DNA of 64,000 bases from Solirubrobacterales bacterium (GTDB lineage Bacteria; Actinomycetota; Thermoleophilia; Solirubrobacterales; Solirubrobacteraceae), in NCBI GenBank assembly GCA_027451345.1, contig DAIDJO010000073.1, positions 1 to 64,000 on the forward strand. The letters run 5' to 3'. Position numbers and translations under genes: made by a program. This document shows positions 29,037-38,652 of this stretch, piece by piece. The notes beneath the pieces were generated by a model that did no database searches, had not been told where the DNA came from, and was given only the letters and a program-made list of their open reading frames with translations. Position 1 is the first letter of the stretch. The number at the start of each line of letters is the position of its first letter.

Positions 29037-30170
29037 TCAGCCGCGCTGAATGCCGACTGACGTGGCGGTCCCCTCGTACCGGCTCTGGGTCCTCGCGTAG
29101 GGACCGACCGTGTGCCGGTCGAGGAACTTCAGGCCGGTGTCGACGTCGGCCGGCCCGATCAGCCCGTCCGTCGCCCGGTACAGGAACAGCTCGAGGGTGG
29201 CCAGGAAGCCCTGCAGGTACGGCTGCTGGTCGATGGCGAACTGGATCACGCCGTCGGCCAGCAGCGTCGCGGTGTTCGCGGTGAGATCGAAGCCGCCGCC
29301 GACCACCTTGCGGGCCAGGCCGTACTGCTGGATCGCTTGGGCCAGGCCGGCGGTGCTGCCGGCGTCGACGGCGAAATACCCGCGGAAGCGGTGCCGGTGC
29401 GTTCCGATGAAGGCGTCGGTGGCGGTGATCTCCTGCGCCTGGCCGGCGCCGGTGGCCGGGGCGGTGATGTGCAGGTTCGTGCCCGCGAGCGCCTCGCGGA
29501 CGCCGTCGAGCCGCGGCTGCGCTCCGGTCGACCCGGGGACGCCGATGAACACGGCGATGCGGCCCCCGTCGGGCAGCAGCTCGCGGATCCGCTCGCCCAT
29601 CGCCCGTCCGGCCTGCCGGGGGTCCTGTCCGATGTACGCGAGCCGGCGGGTGCCGGGCGCGTCGGCGTTGTAGGCGATGACGGGGATGCCGGCGCGGATC
29701 GCGGCGTCGACCGGCTCGGCGAGCAGCGGTGAGATCAGGCTGGTGGCGATGCCGTCGACGCGCGCGCTGGTGGCGGTGTCGAGCGCGCTCGCCATCTGCC
29801 GGGCGTTGCTCGACGTCGACCCGGTCCACGCGTAGGAGCAGTTGAGCAGCCGGCAGGCGTCCTGGATGCCGTTGATCGTCGGGATGAAGAAGGCGTTCTC
29901 GGTCGCATGGTTGACGAAGGTGAAGCGGTAGCCCCCCTTGACACCGAAGATCGCGGGGACGGGGTTGCCGGGCGTCTGGATCGTCGTCGTCCCGGTGCCG
30001 CTCGCGCGCCCGCACGCGTCGAGCAGCGCGGCGGCGAGGCCGGCCGCTCCGCCGGTGAGCGCGCTGCGGCGCGTCAGCCGGAGCGCGGGGGAGACGCGGT
30101 CCGCGCGCGTGTCGCCCCACTCGAGGCGCTCAAGCGCGTCCTCGACGGCGTCCGGCTCACTCTGGTTCAT
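29037..30170 (-). CDS. Second sugar-binding lipoprotein (periplasmic-binding family)
   Basis: The 377-aa protein has an unusual start: 33 soluble residues precede a twin-arginine sequence TRRSALTGG, a hydrophobic stretch and a lipobox LLDAC with Cys 53. This fits a Tat-exported, lipid-anchored binding protein. The mature part resembles RbsB/LacI-type binding proteins (VDGIATSLISPLLAEPVDAA; NADAPGTRRLAYIGQDPRQA). It lies downstream of the permease but after a strong hairpin, so it may be expressed separately. It may give the transporter a second ligand range. Confidence 0.87.
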   Translation of the reverse strand: MNQSEPDAVEDALERLEWGDTRADRVSPALRLTRRSALTGGAAGLAAALLDACGRASGTGTTTIQTPGNPVPAIFGVKGGYRFTFVNHATENAFFIPTINGIQDACRLLNCSYAWTGSTSSNARQMASALDTATSARVDGIATSLISPLLAEPVDAAIRAGIPVIAYNADAPGTRRLAYIGQDPRQAGRAMGERIRELLPDGGRIAVFIGVPGSTGAQPRLDGVREALAGTNLHITAPATGAGQAQEITATDAFIGTHRHRFRGYFAVDAGSTAGLAQAIQQYGLARKVVGGGFDLTANTATLLADGVIQFAIDQQPYLQGFLATLELFLYRATDGLIGPADVDTGLKFLDRHTVGPYARTQSRYEGTATSVGIQRG

Positions 30171-30386: not shown

Positions 30387-31694
30387 CTAGCGAACCACCG
30401 CCCGGCGCCGCACGAGGGCGTCGAGCGAGACCGCGGCGATCAGCACGACGGCGGTGGAGATGTCCTGCACGGCCGGGCTGACGCCCATCAGGGCGAGGCC
30501 GTTGTACACCACCGAGATGACGAAGCCGCCGAGCAGCGCGTTGACCATCCGCCCGCGGCCGCCGAACAGCGCGGTTCCGCCGACGACCGCCGAGGCGACG
30601 GCGTAGAGCACCAGGGTGCCGCCGTCGATGGCGGTGGAGACGCTGCCCTGCTGGGAGATGTAGATCAGGCCGGCCAGCGCGGAGGTCGCGCCGGACATGA
30701 TGAAGCCGAACGTGACGATCCACTTGACGTTGATGCCCGCGCGGCGCGCCGCCTCCGGGTTGTTGCCGACCGCGTAGATGTAGCGTCCGGTCCGGGTGTG
30801 CGAGAGCAGCCACGAGTACGCCAGGATGATGAGCAGCACGAACGGGATCACCCACGGCACGCCCTCGACCACGCCGAGGTTGCTGCGGTTGGCGTTGCAG
30901 ATGTAGAGCAGCACGACTCCGGCGGCCGCCACGGCGCCGATCGTGATCACGGTGACCCCGATGGGCTTGGTGTGCAGCCCGCGCGCCCGACGGGACCGGT
31001 TGCGGCTCAGGGTCAGCGCGGCGAACAGCGCGACACAGGCCACCATCACGATCCAACCGAGGGTGGGGCTCATCTGGCTGCCGGCGAGCTTGGCGATCGG
31101 GGTCGAGGGATCGATCTGGATGACGCCGCCGACGGCGGTCTTGTCGAAGTTGGCGAGCTCGAGCATGATCCCGAGGAAGCCGAGCTGCCCACCGAGCGTC
31201 ACGATGAAGGAGGGCAGGCCGAGCCGCGTGATCAGCGTGCCCTGGATCAGGCCCAGGAAGCCCATGACCAGGACGCCGCCGACGATGCCGAGCCACCAGG
31301 GGAAGTTGACGGGCGGGGCGATCAGCTCCGCGATCACGAACCCGCCGATCCCGACCCCGTAGCCGAGGCTCAGGTCGATCTCGGACAGCAGCAGGATGAA
31401 CGTCTCAGCCGCGCCGATGACGATGAAGATCGCCGACTCGATGAAGAGGTTGACGAGGTTTCCGTCGCTCAGGAACGCGGAGCTCTCGATCTGGAAGAAG
31501 ATGCCGATCAGGATGAGCGCCGCCAGCACCGGCAGCGCGCCGCTCTCGCCGCCCTTGATCCTGCGCCACCACGCCTGGACGTATTCGCCGAGCGTGTTGG
31601 CGAGCGCCTCGGGGGCGACGGTGGTCAGCTCGGCCTCGCTGAGCGCGGACTCAGAGCCTTCGTCGGGTTCGATCTGAGCTTGGGGGGTACTCAC
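30387..31694 (-). CDS. Sugar ABC transporter permease (RbsC/XylH type)
   Basis: The 435-aa protein from GTG 31694 has a 60-residue cytoplasmic N-terminus, then about ten membrane helices. It carries motifs of the branched RbsC/XylH permease family: EIDLSLGYGVGIGGFV, AVGNNPEAARRAGINVK and GGTALFGGRGRMVNALLGG. It forms the channel through which pentoses or related sugars enter. It follows the ATPase gene by 21 nt. Its length exceeds RbsC (about 320 aa) and fits XylH-like permeases. Confidence 0.93.
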   Translation of the reverse strand: MSTPQAQIEPDEGSESALSEAELTTVAPEALANTLGEYVQAWWRRIKGGESGALPVLAALILIGIFFQIESSAFLSDGNLVNLFIESAIFIVIGAAETFILLLSEIDLSLGYGVGIGGFVIAELIAPPVNFPWWLGIVGGVLVMGFLGLIQGTLITRLGLPSFIVTLGGQLGFLGIMLELANFDKTAVGGVIQIDPSTPIAKLAGSQMSPTLGWIVMVACVALFAALTLSRNRSRRARGLHTKPIGVTVITIGAVAAAGVVLLYICNANRSNLGVVEGVPWVIPFVLLIILAYSWLLSHTRTGRYIYAVGNNPEAARRAGINVKWIVTFGFIMSGATSALAGLIYISQQGSVSTAIDGGTLVLYAVASAVVGGTALFGGRGRMVNALLGGFVISVVYNGLALMGVSPAVQDISTAVVLIAAVSLDALVRRRAVVR

Positions 31695-31715: not shown

Positions 31716-32489
31716 TCAGGCCACGCTGGCGGCCGCGCTCGCCCTGCCGGTGGTCATGTACTCGACCGCGTTCTGGCGGTTGAAGTCTGAGGCCGGCCCG
31801 TTCACCACCAGGTGCCCGAGGTAGAGCACCGCGATCCGGTCGGCGACCTCGAAGATGTCGTTGAGGTTGTGCGAGATCACGAGCACGGCCACGCCGCGCC
31901 CGGAGAGGCGCTTGATCAGGTCGAGCACCATCCGCGTCTGGGCGACGCCGAGGGCCGCGGTCGGCTCGTCCATGATCACGAGCTTCGCCTCGTTGACCAG
32001 CGCCTTGGCCACGGCGACCGACTGGCGCTGGCCGCCGGACAGCGAGGCGACCGGCTGGCGGATGGAGCGGACCGTCGTCACCGACAGCTCCTTGAGCGTC
32101 TGCCGTGCCGCGGTCTCCATCGCGTCCTCGTCGAGCTGCCGCAGCCGCATGGGCTCGTGCCCGAGGAACATGTTCTGGACGATGTCGAGGTTGTCGCAGA
32201 GCGCGAGGTCCTGGTAGATCGTCTTGATGCCCATCTCCTCGGCCTCGCGCGGACCGCTGTGGTGGACGGGCTTGCCCCGCCAGAGCATCTGTCCCGCATC
32301 GGGGGACCAGAGGCCGGCGATGGTCTTGATCAGCGACGACTTGCCGGCGCCGTTATCCCCAATCAGCGCGGTGACCTGTCCGGCCGGAATGTCGAAGGTG
32401 ACGTCCGTCAGGGCCTGGACGGGGCCGAACCGCTTGGTGATCCCGCGCAGCGACAGCAGCGCTTGGTCGGTGGCTTCACTTGTGCTCAT
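31716..32489 (-). CDS. Sugar ABC transporter ATP-binding protein
   Basis: From ATG 32489 the product is 257 aa with a single ABC domain: Walker A GDNGAGKSSLIK, Q-loop IYQDLALCDNLDI, signature LSGGQRQSVAVA, Walker B KLVIMDEPTAALG and H-loop VISHNLNDIF. Only one ATPase domain is present, unlike RbsA/XylG, which carry two, so it must dimerise. The fused sensor kinase upstream has a closely similar ATPase domain (CENLDV against CDNLDI) but lacks the H-loop His. The frame extends to 32579 without support. Confidence 0.93.
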   Translation of the reverse strand: MSTSEATDQALLSLRGITKRFGPVQALTDVTFDIPAGQVTALIGDNGAGKSSLIKTIAGLWSPDAGQMLWRGKPVHHSGPREAEEMGIKTIYQDLALCDNLDIVQNMFLGHEPMRLRQLDEDAMETAARQTLKELSVTTVRSIRQPVASLSGGQRQSVAVAKALVNEAKLVIMDEPTAALGVAQTRMVLDLIKRLSGRGVAVLVISHNLNDIFEVADRIAVLYLGHLVVNGPASDFNRQNAVEYMTTGRASAAASVA

Positions 32490-32598: not shown

Positions 32599-33822
32599 CT
32601 AGTGGATGTGGAACTTCGTGCAGTCGGCCTTGTAGCTGCCGGTGCAGAGCTGCTTGGCGGTGACGAAGCCGTCCTTGACGACCGTCTTGCCCATGGTGGA
32701 GGCGGTGACCCACTCGGGGGTCTCCAGCACCGACGGAACCGCCTTGTGGCTGCTCGGGTCGATGGTCTTGCCGTTCAGGAGGCTCGCCGGGGCCTTCTTG
32801 CCCGCGCGCAGGTAGATCGCGAGCGCGACGGCCGCACCGGCCTCCTTGTAGATCGGCTTGTAGACGGTGCCGCACTGGTAGCCCGAGATGATGTTCTGCA
32901 GGCCGGTCAGCGTGGCGTCCTGACCCGTCATCGGGAACGTGTACGGCTTGACGCCCTGGGTCTTCAGCCAGTTGATGATGGGGGCGCCGTTCTCGTCGTT
33001 GGGGATGACGGCCGAGTTGGCCTTCTTCCCGGTCGCCTGGTAGGCGGCCTCGAACTCGTCAAGCGCGTCCGGCTTGGGAGTCGTCGGGTTCCACGTACCG
33101 GCGGTGTTCTTGAGGAGCTTGATCTTGCCCGCCTTCTCGAGCGGCTTGAGCACGCTGTCGTAACCCTTGGTGAAGAGGGTCGCGTTGTTGTCCGTCGGCG
33201 CGCCGTGCATCTCGATGAACTGCGGCTGCTTGCCCTTCAGCCAGGAAGCGGCGCAGGACACGAAGCCCTTGCCGATCAGCTTGCCGACCGTGACGTTGTT
33301 GAAGCTCACGTACGGAGCGGAGTCGTTGGCGCCCTGGCCGGAGCTCAGACGGTCGTACTGCACGATCTGAGCGCCGTGAGCCTTCGCGTACTTCATCGCC
33401 TGCACGCCGGCGCCGGGATCCTCGGGGTCGATGAGGATGACGGTCGCGCCGTTCGAGATGTCGGCCTCGACGTCGGTCAGGAACGTCGTGTCCGAGCCCT
33501 GGGCGTTCTGCGGCGTGATGATGTCCGACGCCGGCATGCCGGCGGCGAGCAGCGCCTTCTTGATGTCAGGCTGGTCGAACTCGACATACCGGGTCGAGCT
33601 CGTCGTGTCCGGCATGATCGCCGCGATCTTGCCCTTGCCGGCGGCGACGATCGGCTTCAGCACCTTCAGTCCGCTGAAGTTGTTGGTGAACGAGTTGATC
33701 GAAATGGCTGCCGCGTGGGCGTCCGTCTTGGCCGATGCGGTGGCGCTCATACTGGCAACGCCAACGCTCGCCGCAACCGCGCACGAGACAATTCCGACCT
33801 TGCTGTTGCGCAGCAAGCTCAC
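32599..33822 (-). CDS. Sugar-binding periplasmic protein (xylose-binding-like)
   Basis: The 407-aa protein starts at GTG 33822 with AGGAGGT six bases upstream. It has a Sec signal peptide (VGIVSCAVAASVGVASMSATASA) with cleavage near residue 31. The mature part matches XylF-like binding proteins: IAAIMPDTTSSTRYVEFDQP, VILIDPEDPGAGVQAMKYAK, VPNDE-like AVIPNDENGAPIINWL and TGQDATLTGLQNIISG. It captures sugar for the ATPase/permease pair. It is the first gene after the two-component pair and has its own promoter-like sequence. Confidence 0.92.
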   Translation of the reverse strand: MSLLRNSKVGIVSCAVAASVGVASMSATASAKTDAHAAAISINSFTNNFSGLKVLKPIVAAGKGKIAAIMPDTTSSTRYVEFDQPDIKKALLAAGMPASDIITPQNAQGSDTTFLTDVEADISNGATVILIDPEDPGAGVQAMKYAKAHGAQIVQYDRLSSGQGANDSAPYVSFNNVTVGKLIGKGFVSCAASWLKGKQPQFIEMHGAPTDNNATLFTKGYDSVLKPLEKAGKIKLLKNTAGTWNPTTPKPDALDEFEAAYQATGKKANSAVIPNDENGAPIINWLKTQGVKPYTFPMTGQDATLTGLQNIISGYQCGTVYKPIYKEAGAAVALAIYLRAGKKAPASLLNGKTIDPSSHKAVPSVLETPEWVTASTMGKTVVKDGFVTAKQLCTGSYKADCTKFHIH

Positions 33823-33921
33823 AGAGGTACCTCCTAGATGGCCTCTCTCCTGGGCGAGGACCAGCCCAGTCGGGCATGGGACCTCCCCCCTTTACGGAGA
33901 CTGATGGTATGGGCGCCGTTA

Positions 33922-33949
33922 TGAATAAGGCGTGAACAAAGCCTGTCAA
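33922..33949 (-). promoter_or_regulatory. Putative promoter of the sugar-transport genes
   Basis: On the minus strand TTGACA (33949-33944) is followed after 16 nt by TATTCA (33927-33922), about 100 nt before the GTG of the binding-protein gene. The surrounding 33823-34016 is AT-rich against the genome average and also contains the palindrome CGTTAACG (33963-33970), a possible regulator site. The -10 match is weak. Confidence 0.45.
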
Positions 33950-34016
33950 TGCATAAATACGGCGTTAACGGTTGTTGTTACGCGGTCCTCCGCGGGAAAG
34001 GCGCAACTCCCGTCGA

Positions 34017-34718
34017 TCACTCCGGCGCGAACCGGTAGCCGGCTCGCGGCGCGGTGAGGATCAGCTGGGCGCCGTCGTCGCCGAGCTTGGCCCGCAGGCG
34101 CCGGACGTAGACCCGAAGGTACTCGGTCTCGGTCTGGTACGCCGAGCCCCAGACGCGCCGGAGCAGGTGCGCGTGGGTGAGCAGCTTGCCCCGGTTGAGG
34201 GCGAGTTCGCGCAGCAGCGCGAACTCCGTCGGCGTGAGATGGATCGCCTCGCCGGCGCGGGTCACCTGCTGGCGGGCGAGGTCGATGACCACGTCGCCGG
34301 CCGCGATCGTCAGGGCCTGTGGCTCCGCGGCCGCCGCCGTGCGGGTGCGGCGCAGCGTCGCGGTGATCCGCGCCAGCAGCTCCTCGACGCTGAACGGCTT
34401 GGTCATGTAGTCGTCCGCACCCATGTTGAGCGCCGTCACCTTGTCGCGCTCGCCCCCGCGGGCCGAGACGACGATGACGGCCACCGTGGAGCGCTCGCGG
34501 ATCTGGCGGCAGAGCTCCATCCCGTCGGCGTCGGGCAGCATCAGGTCGAGCAGGACGATGTCCGGTGCCTCGGTCTCGAGCAGGCGCAGCGCGCGGTCCG
34601 GGTCGGCCGACACGAGCATCTCGAACCCGCGCACGGACAGGTTCGAGCGGATCAGGTCGACGATGTTCGGATCGTCCTCGACCAGCAGCGCCCGCGTCGC
34701 CTCCCGCGCCTCAGGCAT
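34017..34718 (-). CDS. OmpR/KdpE-family response regulator
   Basis: From ATG 34718 the product is 233 aa. The receiver domain has acidic ED (14-16), phospho-acceptor Asp 58 in VLLDLMLPD, and Lys 107 in MTKPFS. A winged-helix DNA-binding domain follows (LTPTEFALLRELALNRGKLL; YVRRLRAKLGDD). It overlaps the sensor-kinase gene by 8 nt, so the two are coupled and very likely partners. The next gene downstream is the sugar-binding protein, the probable target. Confidence 0.95.
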   Translation of the reverse strand: MPEAREATRALLVEDDPNIVDLIRSNLSVRGFEMLVSADPDRALRLLETEAPDIVLLDLMLPDADGMELCRQIRERSTVAVIVVSARGGERDKVTALNMGADDYMTKPFSVEELLARITATLRRTRTAAAAEPQALTIAAGDVVIDLARQQVTRAGEAIHLTPTEFALLRELALNRGKLLTHAHLLRRVWGSAYQTETEYLRVYVRRLRAKLGDDGAQLILTAPRAGYRFAPE

Positions 34719-36600
34719 CGATCCCCACCCTCCGCTCGCTCGCCGGGGCTGACCGCTCGCGTGACGCCGCCCGTTCCGTCGGCCGCGCCGCACGGGCGAC
34801 CGCGGGCGCCGGGTGGGCCGGCTCGGGCGTCGCCTCGGGCCGCTCGGGCGTCAGCACGATCCGGAAGCTCGTGCCCCGGCGGCTGTCGGCCAGCTCGAGC
34901 GAGCCGTGGTGCGCCAGCATGATGCCGCGGGCGATCGAGAGGCCGAGGCCCGCGCCGGAGGTGCTGGATCGGTGACGCCGCGGCCCGTCGAAGGGGGAGT
35001 CACGCAGCTCCGGGGGCAGCCCCTGGCCGTCATCGGAGACGGTGATCTCGAGCTGGCCGCCGCTCAGGCGGCGGGCGGCGATCGCGACGCTCGTCCCCGG
35101 CGGGTTGTGCTGGAGCGCGTTGTTCAGCAGGTTGACGAAGACCTGCTCGAGCCGGTCGTGGTCGGCCCAGATCGGGGGGATGTCCCCGCCCGGGGAGTAG
35201 CTGACCGCGTCGCGCCAGCTCGCGGGCAGGCACGCGATCGCCGCCTCGATCACGAGGTCGAGCTGACACCAGTCGAACTGCATGCGCATCACCCCGGAGT
35301 CGATCGCCGAGAAGTCGAGCAGGTCGTCCACGAGGCGGCCGAGCCGCGAGGATTCGGCCGCGATCGTCTCGAGGAAGCGCTGCTGGGACTCCTCGTCCCA
35401 GACGATGTCGGGGGCCAGCAGGCTCGTGGCGTACCCGCGGATGGCGGTGAGGGGCGTGCGCAGCTCGTGGCTGAGGCGCGAGAGGAACTGGCGCTGGAGC
35501 TCACGCGAGCGCCGCAGCGCCGCCGCCTCCGTGCGCGCCTGCTCGGCGTCCTGGCGCTCGATCGCCGCCGCGGCATAGCCCGCGTACAGCCCGAGGAGGT
35601 CCTCCTCGTCGCGGGTCGGCGCCTCGGCGCCCGCTCGCCGGATGGTGATCAGGGCGCCCGGGCCCCCCGCGCCGGCGACCGGAACGAGCCAGCGGCCGTC
35701 CGTGACGATCACCCGCTCGACGGGGGCGCTGTGCGGATCGGCGCGGATCACGTCGACGGCGCTCCGGTCGACGTTCAGCGCGGCGGCGAGCGCGCCGACG
35801 ATCAGGGCGAGCCCGGAGCTCGGATCGGACACGGCGAGGCTGTCGGCCAGGCCGTGCAGGCGGGTCAGCTGGCGGCGGGCCGATCCGTCCACCGTGCCGC
35901 CGGCGAGCAGGGTGGCGACGTCGTCGGGATGGGAGTCCTGCGGCCGGATCTCCGTCACGACCCGCCCGTCGCGGAGCACGACGATGCGGTCGGCGATCCG
36001 GAACATCTGCCCGACGTCACGCGTGGCGAGGACGAGCGCCACCCCCTCGTGGCGGAGCCGCATCAGCTGCTGCTCGAGTTGGGAGGTCTCCAGGATGCCC
36101 ATCGCGGCGGTCGGCTCGTCGAGCACGAGCACCCGGGGCTGGCGGACGATCGCCATGGCGAGCGCGAGCAGGCCGCGCTGGCCGCCGCTCAGCGTGTCGG
36201 CCCGCTGCATCACGTTCTGGATGGGAACCTCCAGCCGATCGAGCACCTCCCGCGCGTGCTCGTAGAGACGGTTGACCGAGAACATCTGGTTCGGCCGCTC
36301 CTGGCCGAGCAGAAGGTTGCCGGCCACGTCGAGGTTCTCGCACAGCGAGATCTCCTGCCAGACGACCGCGACGCCCTGGCGCTCCGCCGCGCGCAGCGTT
36401 CCGCCGAGCGGGACTCCGTCGACGCGGATCGTCCCGGTGCTGGGGGGAAGGTCCCCACCGATGCAGCGCACGAGCGCGGTCTTACCGGCCCCGGGCTCGC
36501 CGCAGACCGCGACGAGCTCCCCCGCCCCGACGCGCAGGTTGATGCCCTCGAGCGCGGGTACCGACTCGAAGCTGACCCCAACATCGCAAACGTCGAGCAC
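34711..36600 (-). CDS. ABC-ATPase domain fused to a sensor histidine kinase
   Basis: The 629-aa protein joins two systems. Residues 1-225 form a sugar-type ABC ATPase: Walker A GEPGAGKT (34-41), Q82, signature LSGGQ (137-141), Walker B VLVLDE (157-162). The H-loop position reads ATRD with Arg 194 in place of His, so full hydrolysis is doubtful. Residues 245-350 look like a GAF-type sensor region. A histidine kinase follows: H-box RLSHELRTPL with His 378, N-box near 490-497, G1 DDGQGLP and G2 GAGLGLSIARG (549-559). There are no membrane segments. It overlaps the response-regulator gene and sits among genes of one transporter, so it may read transporter state. Confidence 0.9.
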   Translation of the reverse strand: MLDVCDVGVSFESVPALEGINLRVGAGELVAVCGEPGAGKTALVRCIGGDLPPSTGTIRVDGVPLGGTLRAAERQGVAVVWQEISLCENLDVAGNLLLGQERPNQMFSVNRLYEHAREVLDRLEVPIQNVMQRADTLSGGQRGLLALAMAIVRQPRVLVLDEPTAAMGILETSQLEQQLMRLRHEGVALVLATRDVGQMFRIADRIVVLRDGRVVTEIRPQDSHPDDVATLLAGGTVDGSARRQLTRLHGLADSLAVSDPSSGLALIVGALAAALNVDRSAVDVIRADPHSAPVERVIVTDGRWLVPVAGAGGPGALITIRRAGAEAPTRDEEDLLGLYAGYAAAAIERQDAEQARTEAAALRRSRELQRQFLSRLSHELRTPLTAIRGYATSLLAPDIVWDEESQQRFLETIAAESSRLGRLVDDLLDFSAIDSGVMRMQFDWCQLDLVIEAAIACLPASWRDAVSYSPGGDIPPIWADHDRLEQVFVNLLNNALQHNPPGTSVAIAARRLSGGQLEITVSDDGQGLPPELRDSPFDGPRRHRSSTSGAGLGLSIARGIMLAHHGSLELADSRRGTSFRIVLTPERPEATPEPAHPAPAVARAARPTERAASRERSAPASERRVGIDA

Positions 36601-36626: not shown

Positions 36627-37661
36627 TCATGTGAGCCGGCGCGCGCCCGGACCGGGCAGCACCGTGGTCGCGCCGGCGGGCGCGACCACGCGCGGGGGCA
36701 GCAGCGCCAGCACGTGGCCGCCGAAGCCGCCGCCGAGCAGGCGGGCGCCGAGCGCGCCCCCCTGCTTGAGGGCGCCCACCGTTCGCTCCACCGCGGGCGT
36801 GGAGACCTCGAAGTCGTCGCGCAGGCTCGCGTGGGAGAGGTCGAGCAGCCGGCCGAGCCGGTCGAAGTCGCGCCGGCGCAGCGCCGTGGCGGCGCCGAGC
36901 ACGCGCCCGTTCTCGCTGATGACGTGATGGGCGCGGCGGGCGAGCACGTCGGGCAGCATGTGGAGATCCTGGATGAGCGCGTCGCGCAGCGACTCGACCC
37001 CCATGCGATGCGCCGCCTCGACGCACTCCTCGCGGCGCCGGTTGTAGCCGGAGGCCGCGAGCTCGCGGGGCTCGCCCGTGGGCACCGTCACCAGGCGGTG
37101 CTCTCCCAGGTCGAGGGGGAGCGGCTCGAGCTCGAGGCTGCGAATGTCGATCAGGACCGCGTGGCCGGCCCGCCCGCTGAGCGAGGCGAGCTGGTCCAGG
37201 AGGCCGGTCTGGGCGCCCACCCAGCGGTGCTCGATCCGCTGGCCGAGACGGGCGAGCTCGACCAGCGCGGGAGGCTCCGCGCCCGCGAGCCCGAGCAGGG
37301 CCAGGCAGAGGGCGATCTCGAGCGCCGCGGAGGAGGCGAGGCCGGCGCCGCGGGGGAGGTCACTGGAGATCTCGACGCGGGCGGCCGGAGGGGGGTGGCC
37401 GAGCGCGGCGAGCTCGGCGTAGGCGCCGCGGACGAAGGCCGGCCAGCCCGCGACGCGCCCGGATTCGCCGAGCGCAAAGCGGTGCCGCTCACCGAGGTCG
37501 TGCGCCACCGCCTCCACGACCGCGCCATCCATCCGTGTCGCGGTCACCGTGACGCCGGCCGTCACCGCGAACGGCAGCGCCAGTCCGTCGTTGTAGTCGG
37601 TGTGCTCGCCGATCAGGTTGACGCGACCGGGAGCGAAGGCTCGTGCGACGTGCTCGGTCAA
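36627..37661 (-). CDS. galK: Galactokinase (GHMP family)
   Basis: The protein carries the galactokinase signature APGRVNLIGEHTDYNDG, the ATP-binding LPRGAGLASSAALEIAL and the GHMP motif GGGFGGHVLAL. It phosphorylates galactose at C1. The start is uncertain: the TTG at 37661 avoids overlap with the divergent gene, but the frame stays open to ATG 37718 and ATG 37742. It precedes the sensor-kinase gene by 26 nt on the same strand, linking galactose use to this transporter. No galT or galE is present. Confidence 0.88.
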   Translation of the reverse strand: MTEHVARAFAPGRVNLIGEHTDYNDGLALPFAVTAGVTVTATRMDGAVVEAVAHDLGERHRFALGESGRVAGWPAFVRGAYAELAALGHPPPAARVEISSDLPRGAGLASSAALEIALCLALLGLAGAEPPALVELARLGQRIEHRWVGAQTGLLDQLASLSGRAGHAVLIDIRSLELEPLPLDLGEHRLVTVPTGEPRELAASGYNRRREECVEAAHRMGVESLRDALIQDLHMLPDVLARRAHHVISENGRVLGAATALRRRDFDRLGRLLDLSHASLRDDFEVSTPAVERTVGALKQGGALGARLLGGGFGGHVLALLPPRVVAPAGATTVLPGPGARRLT

Positions 37662-37683
37662 GGTCGGGTAGGTTGACAGGTCC

Positions 37684-38652
37684 GTGACCAGCTGGGGTCT
37701 GCTCTCCACCGCGCGCATCAACGACGCCCTGTTGCGCGGCATCGCCGGGGTGCCGGACGCGCGGGCCGTGGCGGTGGCCAGCCGTGACGCCGAGCGGGCC
37801 AGGGCGTACGCCGCCCCGCGCGGGATCGGTCGCGCTCACGGCGACTACGAGGCACTCCTCGCCGATGATGAGGTCGAGGTCGTCTATGTCTCCCTGCCCA
37901 ACGGCCTGCACGTCGAGTGGACCCGCCGGGCGCTCGAGGCGGGCAAGCACGTCCTCTGCGAGAAGCCGCTCAGCCGTTCGCCCGCCGAGGTCGAGGCGCT
38001 CTTCGACCTCGCCGAGCGCCGCGGCCTCGTGCTCAGCGAGGCGTTCATGTACCGCCACCACCCGCAGACGGTGCGGCTCGGCGAGCTCGTGCGCTCCGGG
38101 GCGATCGGCGAGCTGCGCTTCATCCGCGCCACGTTCAGCTTCACCTGCGATCCGGCCGACCCGCGCATGCGCCCCGAGCTCGCCGGAGGCGGGCTGATGG
38201 ACGTGGGCTGCTACCCGGTGAGCATGGCCCGTCACCTCGCCGGCGAGCCGCTGCGGGTGAGCGCCGAGCAGCGGCTCGGCGGCGGGGGCGTCGACGTCGT
38301 CATGGCCGGGACGCTGCGCTTTCCCGGGGAGGTGATCGCCCAGTTCGACAGCGGGCTGGCCCTGCCCACGCGCTACGGGCTGGAGGTCGTCGGCTCGAGC
38401 GCGACGCTTCGCGTCGCGCACCCCTGGCACCCGCCGGTGGACGGGATCGAGCTGTGGCCGGAGGGAGCGCGGACGCCGGAGATCGTGCCGGTGCCGGCGG
38501 CCGACGCCTACGTGCTCGAGGTGGCGAACCTGGGCGCCGCGATCACCGGCGCGGCCGCGCCGCTGCTCGGCCGCGCCGACGCGGTCGGGCAGGCGCGAAC
38601 GCTGGCGGCGCTCTACGCGTCAGCCGAGTCGGGCGCCTTCATGGCCCTCTGA
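37684..38652 (+). CDS. Gfo/Idh/MocA-family oxidoreductase
   Basis: From GTG 37684 the product is 322 aa. The Rossmann start SWGLLSTARINDALL, the EKPLS motif with its catalytic Lys, and the second-domain sequence GGGLMDVGCYPVSMARHL are typical. The family oxidises or reduces sugars and cyclitols with NAD(P). It is divergent to galactokinase and may act on the same sugars. Its 3' end overlaps the opposing SulP gene by 33 nt. Confidence 0.9.
   Translation: MTSWGLLSTARINDALLRGIAGVPDARAVAVASRDAERARAYAAPRGIGRAHGDYEALLADDEVEVVYVSLPNGLHVEWTRRALEAGKHVLCEKPLSRSPAEVEALFDLAERRGLVLSEAFMYRHHPQTVRLGELVRSGAIGELRFIRATFSFTCDPADPRMRPELAGGGLMDVGCYPVSMARHLAGEPLRVSAEQRLGGGGVDVVMAGTLRFPGEVIAQFDSGLALPTRYGLEVVGSSATLRVAHPWHPPVDGIELWPEGARTPEIVPVPAADAYVLEVANLGAAITGAAAPLLGRADAVGQARTLAALYASAESGAFMAL

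Follow-up and report, generated by a model that had tools for sequence, protein, structure and literature searches.

The window analysed here, a stretch of 64,000 nucleotides (64 kb) from a Solirubrobacterales bacterium, holds the gene of a sensor histidine kinase whose N-terminal part is an ABC ATPase domain (NBD), and this gene lies in a cluster with the genes of an ABC sugar importer. The locus thus raises the question of what an importer-type ATPase domain does in a histidine kinase, and whether the kinase, its response regulator (RR) and the importer form a single circuit.

The fusion protein and its domains

The kinase gene (34711-36600; like all features of the window given below, on the minus strand) starts with GTG and encodes a product of 629 amino acids in which no membrane segment was found, so that the protein is predicted to be soluble. 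Pfam detects ABC_tran at residues 17-165 (9.4e-27), HisKA at residues 369-436 (5.2e-21; 35293-35496) and HATPase_c at residues 480-584 (2.7e-22; 34849-35163), which bears out the complete HisKA/HATPase kinase described in the first-pass annotation. The phospho-acceptor His378, assigned by Pfam and alignment, lies in SHELRTPL, HATPase_c carries its N and G boxes, and both SHELRTPL and GAGLGLSI are invariant or almost so among the relatives of the kinase. The NBD covers residues 1-235 (35896-36600). Its Walker A motif GEPGAGKT (residues 34-41, 36478-36501), Q-loop glutamine Q82, signature LSGGQ (residues 137-141, 36178-36192) and Walker B LDEPT are intact, and the H-loop reads LATRD, with Arg194 (codon at 36019-36021) replacing the histidine; for Walker A, signature, Walker B and H-loop this is as had been claimed, and motifs and alignment confirm it. 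It therefore departs from a working CUT2 ATPase at Arg194, the remaining motifs being conserved. The stretch comprising the Q-loop and the start of the helical subdomain, VVWQEISLCENLDVAGNLLLG (residues 79-99, 36304-36366), which we take from ABC importer structures to be the expected permease contact, is the best conserved of the NBD.

In the predicted structure the NBD adopts a complete ABC domain fold (pLDDT ~93), with LptB as its closest PDB match (TM 0.83, by target length), the GAF position is occupied by a small sheet and helices, and a single long helix (residues 330-395) leads into the kinase part. The resemblance to the neighbouring transporter ATPase also held, at 32% identity over residues 9-236. 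The best NCBIfam models for the NBD are those of the XylG, YtfR and AraG N halves, every one of them scoring below its cut-off. The region between NBD and kinase (residues 236-355, 35536-35895), which had been called GAF-like, does align with the Pfam-detected GAF domains of longer relatives (best 2.7e-15), but is a remnant some 50 core residues short, itself without a Pfam GAF match, so that the protein is not a sensor kinase with a complete GAF domain.

Distribution, descent and decay of the ATPase domain

The survey of the architecture across actinobacteria that had been suggested as a check covered 855 genomes sampled from one phylum and found the fusion in 22, either complete or as a fragment at the end of a contig. 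Genomes were searched with the kinase protein or with an alignment, in sets that overlap (family, 146; order, 232; class sample, 399; phylum sample, 396; and 5 and 42 genomes from two additional families) and that together make up handles G000-G854; in the class and phylum samples just two candidates were scored per genome, which limits sensitivity. Twelve carriers make up the clade to which the window belongs (G000, G027, G060, G062, G074-G076, G078-G082), and ten lie outside it (G085-G088, G603, G690, G813, G528, G814, G834). All further class and phylum matches span the NBD alone and are therefore ordinary ATPases. A pattern scan of genome contigs yielded 80 loci, all of them ordinary CUT2 ATPases, with no fusion as judged by match span. 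No match was found on plasmids at 1e-60, nor any relative on viral contigs, and the phylum of an Anaerolineae MAG (L099) rendered none in 350 genomes at 1e-80, a weak indication of absence with two candidates scored per genome. In G060, the kinase frame on contig C71 (L171) stops shortly past the NBD and a permease fragment comes next, at the edge of the contig; a deletion or a misassembly may be the cause.

Since it recurs in 22 genomes and its NBD folds as a complete ABC domain, the architecture exceeds chance. The 22 relatives rule out a chance reading frame, and a pseudogene is ruled out by purifying selection, the dN/dS values of NBD and kinase part being 0.17 and 0.18 for G079/G082, 0.18 and 0.19 for G000/G076, and 0.35 and 0.31 for G080/G062. 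Values of 0.17-0.35, comparable to those of the kinase part, indicate that the NBD is maintained. They also bear on the reading in which the fusion left the NBD behind as a passive relic, while the true input comes through the GAF region or does not exist. Decay of catalytic motifs in one clade could be taken in that sense, but it is the GAF region that erodes or disappears: the longest members have two GAF-like regions, the kinase of the window has its remnant, and the two short ones, of G080 and G062, have none, whereas the NBD is invariably present. We regard a passive relic as hardly credible.

In a FastTree phylogeny of 126 NBDs, the 22 kinase NBDs are monophyletic (support 0.986), and their sister group is that of the single-NBD CUT2 sugar-importer ATPases (support 0.935), within which the operon ATPases are placed; by this grouping the kinase NBD belongs to the CUT2 sugar-importer ATPase family. 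By this topology there was a single fusion event and no repeated copying of the neighbouring ATPase; that the NBD was copied locally from the operon ATPase was likewise discarded, since the tree places it outside the operon-ATPase clade. Some of the loci from the contig scan served as outgroups, namely the tandem ATPases of L038-L069, except L041, L044, L063 and L068, together with single NBDs from L049 and L054. Non-operon ABC matches in L026, L033 and L034 were left out, as were the ATPase fragments of G027 (cut) and G814 (split over two frames), which are also absent from the motif count; the kinases of G074, G075 and G060, which stop at contig edges, were included in the tree and excluded from the operator count.

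The loss of the H-loop histidine, which the first-pass annotation had taken as the defining trait of the protein, is not shared by the whole family. Ten of the 22 kinase NBDs retain the histidine, together with the catalytic Glu, the Walker A Lys and the Q-loop Gln, and the 12 that lack it form one subclade (support 0.929), so that on the tree the loss is secondary, one later event in one clade. In that clade the position is held by Arg in 11 members and Gly in one, the signature is decayed in nine and reads LSGGQ in three, and the catalytic Glu is replaced by Asp in two. The Walker A Lys and the Q-loop Gln are present in all 12, as in all 22. Canonical motifs are found throughout in the 15 complete operon ATPases. 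No segment of the His-lacking NBDs, among 213 compared, is more conserved than the one starting at residue 78, at the Q-loop (0.84, against a mean of 0.69), although conservation of the Q-loop is high in the ATPases too and could in part be inherited.

Gene neighbourhood and a putative operator

The kinase gene is followed by that of an OmpR/PhoB-type RR (34017-34718), whose ATG overlaps the kinase stop codon. The overlap that had been claimed for the two genes is of 8 bp, ATGCCTGA. With a receiver and winged-helix RR adjoining the kinase, the two would constitute an OmpR/PhoB two-component pair. Further along lie the genes of a XylF/ChvE-like sugar-binding protein (32599-33822), a single-NBD importer ATPase of 257 amino acids with all motifs intact (31716-32489), a GguB-like permease of the BPD_transp_2 type (30387-31694) and a second sugar-binding protein (29037-30170), and a galactokinase gene (36627-37742) is located immediately upstream of the kinase gene. 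No close solved structure was found for the permease, and for the importer ATPase the structure matches were to ABC proteins in general.

The RR and the binding protein adjoin the kinase in all 19 clusters with readable sequence past the kinase, the importer genes being divergent in G834. The importer ATPase follows in 17 of them (cut in G027, in two frames in G814); in G076 the contig ends first, and in G690 the ATPase is missing. A permease was found in every cluster on a long enough contig (17/17). The split of the G814 ATPase (L178, 11406-12255) is either a genuine frameshift or an artefact of assembly. As controls, 13 importer loci with no match to the kinase or the RR were considered (L180-L192), in which the order binding protein, single-NBD ATPase, permease is kept in 12 and an ATPase of the same kind is present in all. 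This shared gene order suggests an older transporter unit that has gained, or alternatively lost, the kinase-RR cassette. The comparison supports considering kinase, RR and importer as one functional set.

These controls bear on the proposal that the ATPase domain pairs with the 257-amino-acid ATPase. In such a heterodimer, the kinase NBD would replace one ATPase subunit on the permease, and the cycling of the resulting asymmetric importer would drive the kinase. Asymmetric pairs are normal in CUT2 transporters, where the C half of tandem ATPases lacks the H-loop His in 29 of 30 cases and the Walker A Lys in all 30, and a single-NBD ATPase does share the operon with the kinase. The tandem C half, however, has LSGGN in all 30 cases. 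Kinase NBDs without the His instead retain the Walker A Lys and the Gln and in nine of 12 lose the signature, so that they are not simply a displaced tandem C half. In those nine, with the signature decayed as well, a heterodimer would have no fully canonical ATP site. Moreover, kinase-less importers with the same single-NBD ATPase are common (13/13 control loci), which indicates that this ATPase needs no kinase partner, and the cluster of G690 has no ATPase at all. The catalytic pairing that had been proposed is thereby weakened, and we consider a heterodimer unlikely.

The G690 cluster (L168) comprises contiguous genes for kinase, RR, binding protein and permease, with no ATPase and no recognisable operator; a separate, kinase-less binding protein-ATPase-permease set is found on another contig of this genome, and its ATPase, 58% identical, could serve the permease of the cluster. 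The arrangement points to the permease as the docking partner of the kinase. It can also be asked whether, in the His-retaining lineages, the kinase NBD might itself be a working ATPase that powers the permease. The ten relatives with both H-loop His and catalytic Glu, and the lack of any other NBD in the G690 cluster, would fit such a double function, but an importer ATPase is also present in nine of the ten His-retaining clusters (that of G814 in two frames), and no motor role is expected of the H-loop-less clade, which makes it a very improbable solution.

Between the RR and binding-protein genes, four TTyAyR half-sites at relative positions 0, 11, 32 and 43 make up a putative operator (33920-33968), and the sequence TACCAT, a putative -10 element (33904-33909), is located 16 nt past the start of the last box. 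The box-pair pattern occurs twice in the 64-kb window, against 0.01 times in shuffled sequences. A search for the full 49-bp operator with up to two mismatches rendered one perfect match in each of four genomes of the genus (G000, G079, G080 and G082), always between the RR and binding-protein genes, and in G080 also two imperfect matches, one of which is the same site on the opposite strand. The perfect pattern is absent from G813, where the spacing is 31. Under a strict pattern, L033-L035 and L037 had shown no pair, and L029 and L169 one. With a scored half-site and the best placement taken, four boxes at 0, 11, 31-32 and 42-43 were found in 18 of the 19 clusters, in a weaker form in G085-G088, with TAnnnT exactly 16 nt past the start of the last box in all 18, counts that have to be read bearing in mind that the motif and the -10 position were picked after viewing the sequences and that related genomes are not independent. 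G690 scored 10.5 of 21.6 and was counted as having none. Box pairs were found in 0 of the 13 kinase-less control loci. Four boxes at this distance from a -10 element correspond to the layout of a PhoB-type activator site. The operator and -10 element are consistent with the claim that the system controls expression of the uptake genes, the RR probably activating those of the importer.

Similar half-sites are found elsewhere. Pairs of GTTCACA spaced by 11 bp are located near PstS-like, DUF47 and PhoU genes (L195, L196, L208) in the genome of the window and in a relative. Actinobacterial PHO boxes are given as GTTCACC in 11-nt repeats in PMC6283541, and the GTTCACA pairs, whose half-sites are similar to those upstream of the importer genes, are probably PHO boxes. 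Given this likeness, and since 11-bp pairs occur near genes of the PhoU type, the operator could also be bound by a phosphate regulator and be subject to cross-talk with phosphate control. In addition, two boxes with half-sites of this type are located upstream of a gene for GTP-dependent phosphoenolpyruvate carboxykinase in G000 (contig C43, 9288-9305; L199) and G079 (contig C1, 273957-273974; L194). This gene is a possible second target of the RR, which would tie sugar uptake to gluconeogenesis.

A proposed sensor derived from an importer motor subunit

We favour, with some reservation, a reading in which the kinase is the sensor of a dedicated circuit, its input being a domesticated CUT2 ATPase subunit that docks on the permease and its RR an activator of the importer genes. 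The circuit of kinase, RR and importer is well supported by comparison; docking of the NBD on the permease as a mimic of the motor is what we infer from sequence, and both the stoichiometry and the sign of the signal are conjecture. A kinase without a membrane segment requires a membrane partner in order to sense an external sugar, and a sensing part that is a worn copy of the importer's motor subunit suggests that sugar is sensed by docking on the importer. The two NBDs of a kinase dimer, or one of them opposite a true ATPase, would bind the permease by way of the Q-loop groove and close round ATP once the sugar-loaded binding protein engages the permease. Without the H-loop His, such a pair would hydrolyse ATP slowly or never, acting as a latch and not as a motor. 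Its closure would be relayed along the long helix to the HisKA helices and set kinase activity, and the phosphorylated RR would bind the four boxes beside the -10 element and activate the genes of the binding protein, ATPase and permease, in a positive feedback on sugar uptake. The kinase would report sugar occupancy. As a more tentative extension, a sugar importer may have become a receptor once a histidine kinase acquired its own copy of the motor subunit. Permease and binding protein may then be shared by a working ATPase, for transport, and the motor-mimic kinase, for signalling, and in the G690 lineage, where the motor would have departed from the cluster, the remaining binding protein, permease and kinase would represent a receptor kinase derived from an ABC importer.

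It could also be the case that the NBD senses cytosolic nucleotides or energy status, its dimer closing with ATP and gating the kinase without touching the importer. The intact Walker A motif of all 22 relatives, the solubility of the protein and the putative nature of the permease link are compatible with this, but the one-to-one link to a CUT2 permease, the conservation of the Q-loop segment and the descent of the NBD from the importer's own ATPase family would then be left unexplained, and we find a nucleotide sensor improbable.

A sensor docking on its importer, as we favour, has partial parallels in known systems. MalK, the working ATPase of a sugar importer, binds the one-component activator MalT, the regulator of the importer's operon. 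The likeness lies in a sugar-importer NBD that controls the regulator of its own operon, as proposed here, and the difference in that here a second, dedicated copy of the NBD belongs to the kinase. Tandem CUT2 ATPases of the RbsA/XylG/MglA type belong to the same ATPase family and have a pair of NBDs one of which lacks the H-loop, but the kinase NBDs retain Walker A and fall into a clade of their own, with the single-NBD ATPases as sister group. In the BceAB-BceS/BceR system, as presented in PMC10314905 and PMC8534201, the signal of the kinase depends on an ABC transporter and the RR raises transporter expression, as is proposed here; according to the same papers, BceS is a membrane kinase that touches BceB through membrane helices and serves peptide-antibiotic resistance, whereas the kinase of the window is soluble and bears its own importer-type NBD. 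Neither the BPD_transp_2 permease nor a kinase without a membrane segment corresponds to a Bce-type module. The PstSCAB-PhoU-PhoR/PhoB system resembles the present one in that an ABC importer informs a kinase, with a PhoB-type RR and, in our operator, 11-bp box repeats; as described in PMC6978683, the signal passes via PhoU to a separate kinase, while in the present case a paralogue of the ATPase forms one protein with the kinase, whose input, unlike that of PstSCAB, is probably sugar. Transporter-coupled kinases are therefore already known, but in the open-access literature (titles and abstract openings) no fusion of an ABC ATPase with a histidine kinase was found described, nor any kinase that uses an importer NBD for sensing.

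Signalling of the status of an ABC importer is mostly known from transporters that touch a separate kinase or regulator. With a copy of the motor subunit fused to the kinase, the Q-loop groove can be predicted as the contact surface, and in one clade sensing is set apart from driving by the loss of hydrolysis motifs. Since operator and neighbourhood are fixed and there are lineages with and without the H-loop, whether such a kinase senses occupancy or flux becomes directly testable.
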